Below are positions 35,501 through 56,364 of a DNA stretch of 64,000 bases, piece by piece. This stretch comes from Maylandia zebra (taxonomy: Eukaryota; Chordata; Actinopteri; Cichliformes; Cichlidae), in contig NC_135176.1 in NCBI RefSeq assembly GCF_041146795.1, forward strand, positions 13,636,286 through 13,700,285, in the 5' to 3' direction. Made by a program: the position numbers and the translations under genes. The notes under the pieces are model-generated. The model saw only the letters and a program-made list of their open reading frames with translations. It was not told where the DNA came from and did no database searches. Numbering within the stretch: the first letter of the stretch is position 1; the number at the start of each line of letters is the position of its first letter.

Positions 35501-38500
35501 GATCATTGATAGTATCATCGAAGAGAGTCAAAAGGGAGACGTAGGTGAGGTGGCTCAGCTGTTAGATCAGCTGCATGTTGATGTAGCAGCCGAGCCAAAT
35601 GAGCAGAATAATGGTGACAGGCTCCCTGGGGAGCTGGCTGTGCCAGCTGCTGAACCCCAGCTTGTCGAGAGGCCAGAGGAACAACAGAATAGCATAGTAT
35701 CAAACGGCGAGTGCTCTATACCTGCTCTCGAGCCCACAGGTCTCCCAGGGCCATCAGCTGGCTCACAAGAACATGTTCAGCCTCCAGACATCACCAGCAC
35801 CATAGGACAGAGTCAGCCCAGCCTGTCTGTTGCGGTTGCAGAAGGTGGTCAGGAGCCAAGACCGGCTGACATCTTAGACCAGGTTCCCTTGACTGACAGG
35901 CCAGCTGACTCGGACTCCTCTGGGTCTTTAAAACCTCAGCAGTTCACAGTGGAGCCAGACATTGTAGCTAGCACAAAGAAGCCTCCTCCCTCACGCCCAC
36001 CCCCTCCAAGCGGGGGTCCTCCTGCAAGACCTCCGCCACCATCTCGGCCGAAATTACCTACCAAGAAGTCACAGGAGTGTGTTAGGCCAAGTGGGCTGGA
36101 AGGTAGGCAATACAGTGCGATTTTAATGGGTCTCAATGTCAAATGTGTTGCATCAATCCAGTGTGGGATTTTAAACTGTTACCTGTTACTAAACAAGTGT
36201 TAAAATGTCTTTATCTTTTATGTATGTCTATGTACTTATCTGCCACATCATATGAATCACACTAACATAAAGCAGACAGAAAAAGAAGACGGTTTTTCTT
36301 ATAAAGTTTTTTTTGTTGTGTTGCGTGATTTTTTCCAGTGTCTGCTGTCAGTGTGGTCTGCAGTGATTCTCTGGAGCCATCAGGCCTCCTGTCTCCTGGC
36401 AGCACTGTGAGGAGTCTAACCAAAGAGCTGCAGCATTCCTTGGATCTGGCCAGTGCTACCAGTGGAGACAAGGTGGTGACGGCACAGGTGAGTGAGGCTC
36501 AGACCTCTTTTTGGTGCTAAAAAAGGAATTTAAATATTGTGCAGTAATTTCTATTTTATTTATTTATTATTTTTATTATTTATTTTTAGGAAAATGAAGA
36601 TGAACAGACCTCATCTCAGAGCGGAGGACAGACCCCAGGCCCTCAACGTCCTCGGTCAAATTCTGGCAGAGAACTGACAGATGAAGTAAGAGTCAGTTTT
36701 TGTGTGTGCTTGAGTCCAAGCCACAACCTAAAATCGACACATTCCTGGCACCGGTCGTCATTGCAACAAAAATATGCTTGTGGGCATCTTAAAACAGGAA
36801 ATCTTGGCCAGTGTGATGATCAAGAATTTAGACACTGGGGAAGAAATTCCTCTAATTCAGGCGGAGGAGAAACTTCCTGCTGGGATCAACCCTCTCACTC
36901 TGCACATTATGAGGAGGACCAAGGAGTACATCACGTAAGCAGAACATTATTTACGTGGGTTAGCTCGTGTTGCTGTTGTCAAATTCAATTTAAAACTGTT
37001 CAAATCACAGCTTATTAAACAAGTCAATGAGGGAAAGATTAGGGTGAAGCCAAACACTTGACCTTCAGATCAGATTCTCAGAAAAGGTTTTCCCTGTTGA
37101 GGGAATAAGTTGATTACAATGGGTTGCACTGATATTGCTCACATAAGTTTCCCATGGAAAACATGGTTAAGCTTTATCATCTAAAACAAGAACCTGGTAA
37201 AGTTTCGAGACGACGCTGATATATTTTTGGCTTTGCAGGAATGATGCAGCACAGTCAGATGATGATGAGAAGACTCAGACTCCAATGACAGACACAGACG
37301 GTGGAAAACTAAAACAGAGAACGTAAGGACTAGTGGTTTTTGGTTGCCTTTTGCTGAAACTTAGTGTATTTCCCTCTTTCACAACATCATCTAATTTAAA
37401 GTATATTAATGGTTTGTTGGTATTTCTGACCAGGACCCAGTTAAAAAAATTCCTCGGCAAGTCGGTGAAGAAGGCCAAGCATCTGGCTGAGGAGTACGGA
37501 GAGAAGGCAGTCAACAAAGTGAAAAGTGTTCGTGATGAAGGTAAAAAAAAAAAAGAGAAGGAAGTGAAAGGATGTTGTGCAGAGGCAGTTGTATTTTTTT
37601 TTAAAAACCATACAGCCTATATTCATGTTCCTGTGGATAACTTACTAAACATTACAAGAAAGTGTCCTGTCCAACTACAACCCTAGTTGTCGGTATAACA
37701 AGTTGTGTGCACACACCGTTTTTAGTGTGTGCTTTTTTTAAGCACCATAAAGAAAAAAATGCATTAAAAATACAGTTTTCTTGAACACAAGAAAATAAAT
37801 AGTCTTTGACTCTGTCTCAGTTGTACGTGTTCACTATTAGAGCTCTGACTATTATCACAGAACCCTTATGAGTCCAAGAGTGCAGAAATATGGACCTGGT
37901 AATGAGCATAATGGGTCTGACTTTAAGAATATCCCAAATGCCAACACAGGCTTGTGAAATAACCCTGATACACTTCTTCTTTTTGTTTATCCTACGCTCA
38001 GTCTTCCATACAGATCAGGATGATCCATCATCGAGCGACGATGAGGGTATGCCTTACACCAGGCAGGCCAAGTTCAAGGCAGCGCATAGCTTCAAGGGTC
38101 CCTTTGACTTTGACCAGATTAAGGTTGTGCAGGACCTCAGTGGAGAGCACATGGTGGGATTATTGTACCATGTTATTTTATGCACTGACACACTGTGTGC
38201 TACTACATGCTTGTATTAAGAGATCTTTGTTTGCTTGTGTTTTTTTTTTGTTTTTTTAAGGGGGCCGTTTGGACAATGAAGTTTTCTCACTGCGGGAGGC
38301 TGCTGGCAACTGCGGGCCAAGATAACGTGGTTCGCATTTGGGTCCTGAAAACAGCGTTTGATTACTTCAATAATATGAGATTAAAGTACAATACTGAAGG
38401 TAAGCGCATTAGCAACATATTTGATTTCTTTTTTATTTGTATGATAATTGATTATTTGGGGGGAAAAAGAATTCAGCTGCCTGTCATTTTGCTTTGAAGG

Positions 38501-38540: not shown

Positions 38541-41500
38541 TCGTCTTGAGTCTCTCTGAACTATTACAGACAACATAACAAAGAAACGATTTTAAATTTA
38601 TAGTATGGAACCGATAGTTTCAGCAATCTCCCTCCACGAATCTGCTGACATTTGTGAGTGTTTATTATAGGGAGTGCAGAATTATTAGGCAAGTTGTATT
38701 TTTGAGGAATAATGTTATTATTGAACAACAACCATGTTCTCAATGAACCCAAAAAACTCATTAATATCAAAGCTGAATGTTTTTGGAAGTAGTTTTTAGT
38801 TTGTTTTTAGTTTTAGCTATTTTAGGGGGATATCTGTGTGTGCAGGTGACTATTACTGTGCATAATTATTAGGCAATTTAACAAAAAACAAATATATACC
38901 CATTTCAATTATTTATTTTTACCAGTGAAACCAATATAACATCTCCACATTCACAAATATACATTTCTGACATTCAAAAACAAAACAAAAACAAATCAGC
39001 GACCAATATAGCCACCTTTCTTTGCAAGGACACTCAAAAGCCTGCCATCCATGGATTCTGTCAGTGTTTTGATCTGTTCACCATCAACATTGCGTGCAGC
39101 AGCAACCACAGCCTCCCAGACACTGTTCAGAGAGGTGTACTGTTTTCCCTCCTTGTAAATCTCACATTTGATGATGGACCACAGTAGGGCTGCACGATTA
39201 ATCGTTAGAAAATCGCGATCTCGATTCATACTTATGTGCGATCTCATTTCCAAATGACAACGATTTAAAAAAAAAAAAAAAAAACAGACGACGACGATTG
39301 TACCGCAATCTGATCCGGGACGTAATCTGCATGAAAACAAGCGCTCACTCTTCCTGCTCAACAAATGACAAGGGCGGAGCCTTATACCACGTGAGGGTAT
39401 TAGCAGGGGAAAAAACAACGGTGAGCACGTCAGTGACAGGAGAAAATCTGTCCCGGTCAACCACCCAAACATCAATAACGGGAATCTTATACAGCGCTTC
39501 CCTATACCCGTCGAACTCCCGCAGGCACAAAGAAATTACGGAGGTTATTACTTATCACCTGACCAAAGATATGGCTCCCATCAACACTGTGCAAAACGAG
39601 GGATTTAGGAAAATGATCAACACCCTAGACAAACGCTACACAGTGCTGTGTTATTTTTCTATTGTTGCACTACCTGCTCTATACACGCAGTGTCGAGCAA
39701 CAGTGGAGACGGAATTTCAAGCAGTACAACATTTTGCGGCAACAACAAAACATGAGACAATTGTTGTTTTTATGTTTGTTTATTGTTTTTATGTTCAGTT
39801 TCAACGAAGTTGATGTGCAGTTAATAAGTGCAATAAATATTTATACTGGAAAAGAAAATTGTGAGAGAATCGTGATCTCAATTCTAAGCCAAAAAAATCG
39901 TGATTCTCATTTTATGCAAAATCGTGCAGCCCTAGACCACAGGTTCTCAATGGGGTTCAGATCAGGTGAACAAGGTGGCCATGTCATTAGTTTTTCTTCT
40001 TTTATACCCTTTCTTGCCAGCCACGCTGTGGAGTACTTGGACGCGTGTGATGGAGCATTGTCCTGCATGAAAATCATGTTTTTCTTGAAGGATGCAGACT
40101 TCTTCCTGTACCACTGCTTGAAGAAGGTGTCTTCCAGAAACTGGCAGTAGGACTGGGAGTTGAGCTTGACTCCATCCTCAACCCAAAAAGGCCCCACAAG
40201 CTCATCTTTGATGATACCAGCCCAAACCAGTACTCCACCTTGCTGGCGTCTGAGTCGGACTGGAGCTCTCTGCCCTTTACCAATCCAGCCACGGGCCCAT
40301 CCATCTGGCCCATCAAGACTCACTCTCATTTCATCAGTCCATAAAACCTTAGAAAAACCAGTCTTGAGATATTTCTTGGCCCAGTCTTGACGTTTCAGCT
40401 TGTGTGTCTTGTTCAGTGGTGGTCGTCTTTCAGCCTTTCTTACCTTGGCCATGTCTCTGAGTATTGCACACCTTGTGCTTTTGGGCACTCCAGTGATGTT
40501 GCAGCTCTGAAATATGGCCAAACTGGTGGCAAGGGGCATCTTGGCAGCTGCACGCTTGACTTTTCTCAGTTCATGGGCAGTTATTTGGCGCCTTGGTTTT
40601 TCCACACGCTTCTTGCGACCCTGTTGACTATTTTGAATGAAACGCTTGATTGTTCGATGATCACGCTTCAGAAGCTTTGCAATTTTGAGACTGCTGCATC
40701 CCTCTGCAAGATATCTCACTATTTTTGACTTTTCTGAGCCCGTCAAGTCCTTCTTTTGACCCATTTTGCCAAAGGAAAGGACGTTGCCTAATAATTATGC
40801 ACACCTGATATAGGGTGTTGATGTCATTAGACCACACCCCTTCTCATTACAGAGATGCACATCACCTAATATGCTTAATTGGTAGTAGGCTTTCGAGCCT
40901 ATACAGCTTGGAGTAAGACAACATGCATGAAGAGGATGATGTGGACAAAATACTCATTTGCCTAATAATTCTGCACTCCCTGTATATTGATGCTATGATT
41001 ATTTTTTTATTATACTGACATGGTGATTGGTATTCTCTCAGTGATAAATTCAAAAGCCCTGGCAAAAAGGTAGCTGGAAATGCATACAGGGACTCTAAAC
41101 AGACTGTGTTTACCTGATATGTAGCTACATTTCTAGGGAGGTGCACGTCAGGTTACACCTTAGGCTTTCAGAGGGGTTTGTGGTTACAATGTAGCTATGG
41201 CATAGATTTCCCACTGAAGCATAAATCCCCAGTAAGACATAGGAAAAGGTCAAGCAAAGGACCTGAAAGATGCAGGACCTTGTGCTGGTCCATCACCTGA
41301 TCACTGAAGCCTCATCAGAAATGGTCTCAATGAAAGGTTGGCTTTCAAGAAGCCATTCTTAAGGAAGGAGAATAGGGAGAAAAGCCTGAGGTAAGCCAAG
41401 TTACACAGAAACTGGGCTGAAAATCAGTGACAGCAGGTCTCATGGAGTGATGGATCCAAATTTGGCATTTCTGGTTTAAGTTGTCAGTGCATATATGGAA

Positions 41501-44191
41501 GGGATCAGGAAAGGGGTTGCACAACGAGGATCTCCAGTGCTACTGGAGATCAAAAATGAAGAAATTTTGAATGCAGAAAAATCAGATTTTGACATATATT
41601 TCTGAACATGTGGCAGTCAGTGTAACAAGGCATACCTGGATAGAAGAACGGAGTGAAACACTATCAGTCAGCTTTGAATGTCCTTCAAGAGGCCTGCAGA
41701 ACCATTCCTGAAGACTACTTAAAGAAATGAGCAGAAAGCTTCTCAAGCTGCCAACTCTGTTTTTGCCCTATATACTGCATCTGATGTATGTTTACACATG
41801 CTTTAGTAAATAGTTTGTTACACCTATTTAACATTTTCCTAGCCAAATATAAAGAAATTAAGACTCAAGACTTTTCCAGAAGATGTTCAAGTTCTTGTTA
41901 GAGAAACCTTCCTTTGTTTTTTCTTCTCCAGGTCGAGTGTCACCTTCTCCTTCTCAGGAAAGTTTATGTTCTTCTAAATCTGACACTGAGACTGGGGTGA
42001 GTGATGACACTAACACAAAAATCAGACATTTTTAAGCCATTTTTGTTCCAGATGTGTACCTAAGTGACATTTTTATTGTAGGCGAGTTGTATTCCAGAGG
42101 ACCCAGACACGGAAGATAGGAATGCCCCTTTCCGTCAAGTCCCTTTCTGCAAGTACAAGGGTCACACGGCTGATCTGTTGGACTTATCCTGGTCAAAGGT
42201 GATTAAAGCACCCTGTTAAGTTTTTCTACCCCCACACATTTTCTTCTCTCTTGTCTCATCTTTTCCAAAAAAATTTTTGTCTAGAACTTTTTCCTGCTCT
42301 CCTCTTCCATGGATAAAACAGTCAGGTTATGGCACATATCCAGGCGAGAGTGTCTCTGCTGCTTTCAGCACATTGATTTTGTCACAGCCATTGCTTTCCA
42401 TCCCAGGGTACGTTAAGTCACCTTGCATTACTGCTCTCAGCGCAAATCATACATCTATTATTTTGTCTCACAGACTCCATTCATAGTACTTTTTTTTCCT
42501 TCTTACCCAGGATGACAGGTACTTTTTAAGCGGCTCTCTAGATGGAAAACTACGGCTCTGGAACATTCCAGATAAGAAGGTGGCTTTGTGGAATGAGGTG
42601 GATGGCCAAACCCGGCTCATCACCGCTGCCAACTTCTGCCAAAATGGGAAATATGCAGTGATTGGCACCTATGATGGTCGATGTATCTTCTATGACACAG
42701 AGGTATACACATACATTGCTTCATCCAGCCAATACATGGTTTAATTATTTCTTTATAGTACTTTTTTTCATGAACACATCCATTCAAATATGAAGCAAAT
42801 GCATTTTTCTGTTTGCACCTTGTTTTTAGCGTCTGAAATACCACACGCAAATTCATGTGCGGTCCACCAGAGGAAGGAACAAAGTGGGACGCAAGATCAC
42901 TGGCATTGAACCTCTGCCTGGAGAAAATAAGGTAACAGCTGGCCATCACTACAAATATGTCTGCGGTGGGTCGTCAATAGGGCTTGGTAAACTGCGGTTT
43001 ACTAGACCATCTTTATTTCAAGGCTTTCATAGCTTAATTTTTCAGATTTAAAGAGAATAAAAAAAAATATATAAAGAGAAATAAAATATAATCTTAATAT
43101 TTAAAGATATTGGTCAGTAAAACTTTGAGGGACTGACCTGGAGCTGTTGGGTTTTGCTGAATTGCTGTTAACATTATGATGGTGTAGATGTTAATAATTA
43201 AAGTCTTGTTTTTAACAGCACAGAATTTTGAGTCGAAGTCCAGGGCAAACTTCAGAATGCTGATAGGCGCTGGTTCATTGAACTAATCGATGGAATACTT
43301 GATTACTAAAATAATCGACAGCTGCAGCCCTAGTCGTCAGTGTAACAAGTCGTGTCTGTAAGACTTGTGAAATGCCAAATGTTGAACTGTACCCTTTGCC
43401 CATAGATTTTGGTGACATCAAATGATTCCCGCATTCGCCTTTATGACCTGAGGGACTTGTCTCTATCAATGAAGTACAAGGGTTATGTCAACAGTAGCAG
43501 CCAGATTAAGGCCAGCTTCAGGTAAGTGTGTACATTGCTTCTAGTTTGTTTGTTTTTTGTCAGTTTCTAACCTTAAGCATGGACAAAAGCTCTTTCTGTT
43601 GTTGTTGTTGTTGTTGTATTGACACAGTATGTTGCAGTAAACCTGTTTGGCCTTTTTCCTGTAGTCACGACTACTCCTTCATTGTAAGCGGCTCAGAGGA
43701 CAAGTACATATACATCTGGAGCACTTACCATGACTTGAGTAAATTCACATCTGTACGGCGGGACCGCAATGACTTCTGGGAAGGGATTAAAGGTAACTGT
43801 GGTTATGCTAAGTGGCAAACACCGTTTAATGTAAGCAGCCATGGGGCTGCCACTAAAGAGTTTTTCTCTTTCAGCACACAACGCTGTGGTTACGTCAGCC
43901 ATTTTCGCACCCCACCCAGGCCTTATTGTCCCACAGGAGAGTGGTGCAGAGAAGCCAGAAGCAGAGTGTAAGAGCCTGGACTCCACAGACTCTGAAACGA
44001 TACCCTCAGGTATGCCCCCTTTAATTTGCATATGACTCAAGATTTCTTAAAACATCACAGTTCAGTGTCGTAAACTTGCAATGCCATTTTCTCTCTTTGC
44101 AGGAGCATTAAAGACAGATCACACAGAAGTTCTTCTCTCCGCTGACTTCACTGGAGCCATCAAGGTTTTTATCAATGTAAAAAAATACTGA
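32590..44191 (+). CDS. wdr44: WDR44 (Rab11-binding WD40 protein), complete, 20 coding exons
   Basis: Coding exons: 32590-32666, 33451-33484, 35283-35360, 35502-36102, 36339-36487, 36590-36685, 36798-36934, 37239-37322, 37434-37540, 38002-38153, 38261-38399, 41932-41996, 42082-42198, 42285-42407, 42511-42702, 42830-42931, 43406-43521, 43665-43792, 43875-44009, 44103-44191. All introns are GT-AG, phases agree, and the total is 2721 bp (906 aa plus stop; human about 913). Residues 9-17 (EEFYDAPED) form the FFAT-type motif that binds VAP proteins of the endoplasmic reticulum. A proline-rich SH3-ligand segment lies near 223-250 ([14 protein letters not shown]). The conserved [12 protein letters not shown] segment near 300-310 leads into the Rab11-binding region. 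WD40 repeats run from about 506 ([16 protein letters not shown]) to the C-terminus. WDR44 is a Rab11 effector on recycling endosomes that tubulates membranes with GRAF proteins and restrains ciliogenesis. Exon 4 is the fast-evolving part. Intron 11 (3.5 kb) is filled with transposons. Confidence 0.97.
34246..34271. repeat. (GT)n microsatellite in wdr44 intron 2
   Basis: GT run of about 26 bp. A second, shorter run (35210-35227) lies in the same intron just before exon 3. Confidence 0.85.
38505..38537. repeat. Poly(T) tract, 33 bp, wdr44 intron 11
   Basis: Uninterrupted T run shortly after exon 11 and about 130 bp before the Tc1-like element. It may be the reversed tail of an old retroelement. 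Confidence 0.9.
39185..39934 (+). mobile_element. hAT deletion derivative, 750 bp, nested in the Tc1 element
   Basis: Terminal inverted repeats are TAGGGCTGCACGATT and AATCGTGCAGCCCTA, exact over 15 bp. The 8-bp duplication GACCACAG occurs at 39177-39184 and 39935-39942. Subterminal ATCGCGATC/CGTGAT-type motifs are repeated at both ends. Inside is part of a hAT transposase frame (see 39298-39813). Perfect ends and duplication indicate a fairly recent insertion. Confidence 0.95.
39298..39813 (+). pseudogene. Remnant of a hAT (ZBED-like) transposase frame
   Basis: A frame of 171 codons lies wholly inside the nested hAT element. The part at about 39505-39645 reads [18 protein letters not shown], then [12 protein letters not shown] and [14 protein letters not shown]. 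This matches the conserved segment following the BED zinc finger in hAT/ZBED transposases (typical text 'KDM.P...V...GF..M...LDPRY'). The BED finger, catalytic residues and dimerisation region are missing, and the start and end of the frame are not family-like. It shows that the 750-bp element came by internal deletion from an autonomous hAT. Confidence 0.75.
41085..41900 (+). mobile_element. Second Tc1-like relic in wdr44 intron 11
   Basis: Decayed DNA retains long blocks of another Tc1-like family on +. Examples are 'GCTGGTCCATCACCTGATCA' (about 41286), 'AAGAAGCCATTCTTAAGGAA' (about 41349), 'CTGGGCTGAAAATCAGTG' (about 41413), 'GCATACCTGGATAGAA' (about 41630) and 'CTTTGAATGTCCTTCAAGA' (about 41674). 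Internal deletions remove most of the catalytic core. It is a different family and far older than the DD37E element next to it. Confidence 0.7.
42978..43332. mobile_element. Short hAT-type MITE in wdr44 intron 16
   Basis: Begins TAGGGCTTGG and ends GCTGCAGCCCTA, with flanks GTCGTCAA (42970-42977) and GTCGTCAG (43333-43340), a 7-of-8 target duplication. The right end (AATAATCGACAGCTGCAGCC) is the end of a very common fish hAT-type MITE. At 355 bp it has no coding capacity. Confidence 0.75.

Positions 44192-56268: not shown

Positions 56269-56270
<2 letters not shown>
55641..56270. other. Intergenic stretch, nothing recognised
   Basis: AT-rich DNA between the LINE relic and the GATA repeat; no feature identified. 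Confidence 0.5.

Positions 56271-56364
<94 letters not shown>
56271..56364. repeat. (GATA)n microsatellite, about 94 bp
   Basis: About 23 uninterrupted AGAT units, long enough to be highly variable between individuals. Confidence 0.97.

Follow-up and report, generated by a model that had tools for sequence, protein, structure and literature searches.

The closest described relatives of the element analyzed here are the Tc1-like transposons of the DD37E/TRT family, which was published by Zhang et al. 2016 (PMC5630946) and includes DrTRT (Mariner-14_DR). As given in Table 1 of that paper, the elements of H. burtoni, M. zebra and 'P. yererei' are 1563 bp long, with 27-bp terminal inverted repeats (TIRs), and encode 338 amino acids; the TIRs of the family measure 26-44 bp (27 bp in many fishes), and the vertebrate genomes in the table carry from 6 to 435 copies each. 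The same spacing of 37 residues between the second aspartate and the glutamate of the catalytic triad is found in the mosquito elements (MS/ITmD37E) and in L18, the latter compared by description only (PMC10379824); the catalytic motifs of ITmD37E differ (MDDE, PDLA and V/CPQA/FRPIE; PMC5630946), and MS is described from invertebrates only in PMC10379824.

Sleeping Beauty (SB), a DD34E element of the IR/DR type, resembles the element described here in having two repeats at each end and a transposase that combines a paired-like DNA-binding region with a DDE domain, but the sequence identity is low. In SB, 34 residues separate the second aspartate from the glutamate, whereas the respective spacing in our element is 37.

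In a stretch of 64,000 nucleotides of Maylandia zebra DNA (the window), we analyzed an element that, judging by its sequence, is a copy of the already known TRT family (Table 1). In common with TRT, it has the DD37E triad, the TA duplication and the family motifs, (W/F)TDE, Q/HDNA and SPD/HLNPIE along with GRKK, which can be read in its translation when compared with those printed in PMC5630946; the 23-bp subterminal inverted repeat of TRT is present as well. Unlike HbTRT, MzTRT, PunTRT and DrTRT, for which the same paper lists 1563 bp and 338 amino acids, precisely the values of the majority sequence of the siblings analyzed here (1563 bp, 338 codons), the window copy is 1557 bp long without its insert, consists of 336 codons and is split by a hAT-type insert.

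We put at about 95% the probability that the locus is a copy of TRT, a family that has recently spread, which was later broken by the insertion of a non-autonomous hAT-type element. This explanation is built on the observed anatomy of the element, the abundance and near identity of its relatives, the empty hAT site in the siblings and the uniqueness of the TRT-hAT junction. Under this scenario, the TRT transposase would bind the outer and the inner repeat of each end, excise the element and insert it at a TA, in the cut-and-paste manner, and the family would have spread through the host genome recently by such mobility. After the TRT copy had landed in the window, a non-autonomous hAT-type element would have entered codon 277, four codons beyond the catalytic glutamate, duplicating 8 bp and breaking the frame. 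The nearly intact ends of the window copy could, presumably, still be recognized in trans by the transposase of a sibling.

Table 1. Positions of the element, its parts and the flanking matches in the window
Feature	Position	Strand	Remarks
WD40-type Pfam match	38189-38497	+	
TA, left side	38666-38667		
TRT (DD37E Tc1-like) element including nested insert	38668-40982	-	TA flanks; siblings
Left TIR and outer DR	38668-38692	+	first base T; C in right TIR and most siblings
19-base repeat GTGCAKAATTATTAGGCAA	38674-38692	+	
Left subterminal repeat (inner DR)	38857-38879	+	one base off the DrTRT repeat printed in PMC5630946
19-base repeat GTGCAKAATTATTAGGCAA	38858-38876	+	
Transposase part 2	38996-39184	-	C-terminal 60 codons past the break, and stop (38996-38998); includes left 8-bp duplication copy
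Left copy of 8-bp target site duplication GACCACAG	39177-39184		single in 72 of 79 siblings
Nested non-autonomous hAT-type insert	39185-39934		750 bp, 15-bp TIR; no Pfam match in two frames scanned
Right copy of 8-bp target site duplication GACCACAG	39935-39942		
Transposase part 1	39935-40764	-	276 codons: DNA-binding region, GRKK, D144, D235, E273
19-base repeat GTGCAKAATTATTAGGCAA	40784-40802	-	
Right subterminal repeat (inner DR)	40784-40803	-	starts at 40803
19-base repeat GTGCAKAATTATTAGGCAA	40958-40976	-	
Right TIR and outer DR	40958-40982	-	
TA, right side	40983-40984		
WD40-type Pfam match	43510-43971	+	

Anatomy of the window copy and its nested insert

With the insert, the element spans 2315 bp. 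All four 19-base repeats are exact; in 100 shuffled sequences, their mean count is 0. The TIR is 25 bp long, its first base being mismatched, or 27 bp if the TA flank is included, and the counting rule behind the published lengths may differ. Part 1 of the transposase opens with an ATG at 40764 and remains open as far as the insert, and part 2 runs from 39184 to its stop codon, giving 336 codons in total when the duplicated 8 bp are counted once. An earlier note, prepared from the window sequence, had placed the element correctly to the base and pointed out its TA flanks and four IR/DR copies, with no mention of a published family; its description of a DD37E Tc1/mariner transposase of 336 residues, with both parts open in one frame across a nested hAT insertion and all three catalytic residues in place, agrees with our results: the triad consists of D144, D235 and E273, with 37 residues between the latter two, and the insertion is of the hAT type, 750 bp long and bordered by an 8-bp duplication.

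Part 1 matches the Pfam family DDE_3 with 51.8 bits (cut-off 28.6), and its matches to helix-turn-helix families fall below the respective cut-offs, the score of TRT against the Tc3-type family PF01498 being only 16 bits. Among solved structures, its best relative is the catalytic domain of SB100X (5cr4; E-value 1.3e-13), followed by a weak match to Tc3 (1u78; 0.045). No relatives of part 1 were found in phages and plasmids or among the 5 pattern stretches from viral_contigs and the 24 stretches from genome_contigs, and the IR/DR core has 0 matches in viral_contigs. The frame of part 1 continues for nine residues into the insert before a stop codon, so that a product of the window copy would still contain the catalytic triad but be without the last 60 residues; the copy is no longer able to make a full transposase.

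The 15-bp terminal inverted repeats of the insert (TAGGGCTGCACGATT) are identical, and a Pfam scan of two of its frames detected no hAT transposase. By its ends and the 8-bp duplication only, the insert is classified as a non-autonomous hAT element; it resembles such elements in the duplication, the short TIR and the lack of a complete transposase. No match to it was found in 87 other loci of the same genome, mostly TRT copies. In the 72 of 79 siblings counted in Table 1, this site has one GACCACAG and no insert, and the remaining 7 were missed by the exact probe. Among 80 loci, the 750-bp gap is confined to the window copy, and a genome-wide search for the TRT-hAT junction, allowing at most 1 mismatch, finds it a single time. 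Given the empty site in the siblings and the unique junction, the hAT-type element landed in the window copy after the TRT insertion; the uniqueness of the junction further implies that the TRT-hAT composite has not multiplied. Sibling L082, with a frame of 295 like that of the window copy, was considered as a second carrier of the hAT element and ruled out: it has C-terminal stops of its own, and both pieces match it without interruption. A nested copy is, in itself, an ordinary event.

Sister copies and the differences of the window copy

The searches of the host genome covered 962 Mb in 63 contigs, many of them 34-70 Mb long. Part 1 yielded 140 scored matches, one of them the window copy; these rank highest among 9,364 first-look candidates, and the set therefore favors intact copies. 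All are 98-100% identical, 133 of the 140 are stop-free within the match, and 134 are two residues longer than part 1 of the window copy as judged by match spans. Our comparison took in 79 of the 139 siblings, with part 2 compared as DNA only, within the sibling loci. Under a strict rule, 66 of these 79 are uninterrupted and full-length. The 13 others include truncated copies and three (L013, L027 and L043) with a displaced piece and, accordingly, another insert; L016 and L017 failed solely because the match ends 2-3 bases before the break.

The 66 siblings differ from their majority sequence by a median of 0.51% (range 0.13-1.09%) and carry 1-13 substitutions each (median 4) that are private to one copy. 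Nearly all (64) have TA on both sides, and the 25 bases of the TIR also end 58 of them at the 5' side and 52 at the 3' side. The best frame has 338 codons in 48 copies and 336 codons in 4; under a strict motif and C-terminus test, 45 copies remain, every one with the 37-residue spacing. Because the set was picked by protein score, its share of intact copies is not that of the genome. The expectation of the earlier note that intact sister copies survive in this genome is thus borne out by 52 of the 66 uninterrupted siblings. Its proposed search for near-identical uninterrupted copies, run here with part 1 and the IR/DR core, returned these siblings along with the thousands of TIR cores described below. 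The recent activity that it had suggested is favored at the level of the family, by the near-identical siblings; the intactness of one copy is weak evidence of it, and the frame is kept in only 4 of 12 copies chosen by TIR spacing (see below).

Of the 1565 positions compared, the window copy departs from the sibling majority at 8. Two of these differences are absent from the 66 siblings, one is present in L066 only, and five are carried by 5 to 27 of the 66; one of the two absent ones, 242G, reappears in L099 of the later TIR-spacing sample. Three are synonymous, three are non-coding, and two change residues (K60Q and R196W in the majority numbering), each carried by 12 of the 66 siblings. In addition, the window copy lacks one of the two units of a 6-bp tandem, which reduces a run of four glycines in the catalytic domain to two, and its left terminal base is T. 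The earlier note had called the hAT insertion the only visible lesion; this was an overstatement given the in-frame contraction, which recurs in 5 of the 79 siblings (L011, L023, L059, L060 and L061), and the changed terminal base, which recurs in 5 of the 66. By match span, the contraction is present in 6 of the 140 scored matches, the window copy included; among the copies chosen by TIR spacing, it is seen in 0 of the 10 later ones with a readable run, and L035, which belongs to the first set as well, also has four glycines.

These changes bear on the possibility that the window copy would be functional apart from the hAT insert. Both of its parts are open in one frame, the triad is present, and the two residue changes are those shared with a dozen siblings each. 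However, when aligned with SB, the contracted run falls on the glycine strip, the SB clamp loop pivots on three consecutive glycines (PMC7827188), and the window copy lacks two of four glycines there as well as the usual terminal base; we regard a functional copy as rather unlikely. On the sequence evidence, the occurrence of both changes in siblings would neither prove nor exclude function. The contraction was rejected as a subfamily marker, its four full-length carriers being no closer to one another than random sets (0.707 of 5000 draws were as close or closer), and so was the terminal-base variant as a clade marker, with five carriers (0.844 of 5000 draws).

Abundance, frameshifted copies and mixing of variants

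We counted 4,226 exact occurrences of the TIR core in the genome, 2148 and 2078 on the two strands, and the reversed control has 0 occurrences on either strand. This abundance exceeds the 6-435 copies per vertebrate genome in Table 1 of PMC5630946, with the caveat that the counting methods differ. The first 100 listed core places (contig C1, 0.16-25.5 Mb) form 42 convergent pairs within 10 kb and leave 16 unpaired; 34 of the 42 pairs have the spacing of a full-length element, which, if the density is even, corresponds to some 1,280 full-length pairs genome-wide. Extrapolated from this one contig stretch, the genome contains more than a thousand full-length TRT elements, and about two thousand if every core pair represents one element. 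Together with the persistence of many near-identical full-frame copies, this abundance makes tests of insertion polymorphism and activity straightforward.

As a sample by TIR spacing, we took the first 12 pairs with the spacing of a full-length element (L089-L099 and L035, the last of which is also in the protein-chosen set). Their identity to the sibling majority is 98.5-99.7%, and only four of them (L035, L096, L097 and L099) keep the 338-codon frame; near identity and an intact frame are, therefore, separate matters. Four others (L089-L092; 98.6-99.6% identical to the majority) have one identical 1-bp coding deletion in common, which is absent from all 66 protein-chosen siblings; copies of this kind are missed by the protein search because the frameshift cuts the match. 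Their other variants largely differ, with 727C shared by three of these copies and 1448C by two. The shared deletion suggests a variant that multiplied or was spread by conversion, and it may also be an assembly error at one site. Frameshifted copies appear to account for an appreciable share of this young family.

The occurrence of the frameshift in 4 of 12 copies on differing backgrounds suggests that broken copies are propagated by foreign transposase. By the same route, the composite in the window might still move in trans, carrying the hAT element inside TRT ends, and its TIR and inner repeats are, indeed, almost unchanged; but with the junction present once (at most 1 mismatch) and no second composite in the assembly, there is very little chance that it does.

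Variants are mixed among the siblings. At the 15 biallelic sites with at least 3 carriers among the 66, all four combinations were observed in 52 of the 105 site pairs, and in 19 of the 28 when only transversions are considered. It is unlikely that recurrent mutation alone produced this mixing; the sequence patterns make gene conversion among the copies, or template switching during gap repair, the likelier source, and the near identity of the copies could partly reflect such exchange rather than many recent jumps. Taken further, the mixing would fit a family that is older and no longer jumps, the copies of which are kept alike by gene conversion and recombination among dispersed loci, as would the failure of both the 6-bp contraction and the terminal-base variant to cluster on a shared background. 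We consider such an older, homogenized family improbable: all but two of the 66 siblings are located in clean TA duplications, as left by transposition, ectopic conversion alone would have difficulty in keeping whole elements, with their termini, at a median divergence of 0.51%, and template switching in gap repair within an active family would be expected to mix variants too.

The frameshift common to several copies, together with the mixed variants, presents a small, testable case of the spread of defective DNA transposons. A broader picture, which we advance tentatively and to which we assign somewhat less than even odds, is that TRT in this genome comprises over a thousand reticulating copies, with coding-broken variants copied in trans; it draws on the frameshift on different backgrounds in a third of the TIR-spacing sample and on the 2-glycine contraction of the clamp-loop run, which recurs on unrelated backgrounds. 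If true, these variants would be parasites of a parasite, one base from an autonomous element and made common via template switching in gap repair.

Surroundings and other elements

An Rfam scan of the window at the gathering threshold gave no match. Of the other window frames compared with Pfam, all 4 of one set and 1 of 3 in a further set had no match, and the remaining 2 gave the WD40-type matches that flank the element (Table 1). With such matches on both sides, on the plus strand, TRT is probably intronic and oriented antisense to the gene, which we take to be a WD40-repeat gene, perhaps WDR44.

Elsewhere in the genome, at least 150 scored matches to PF01498, L001-L008 among them, evidently represent other Tc1-like elements; many of these have open frames of 361 residues and nearly equal scores, which suggests another young family. 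The window also contains a perfect 24-copy ATAG array at 56269-56364.
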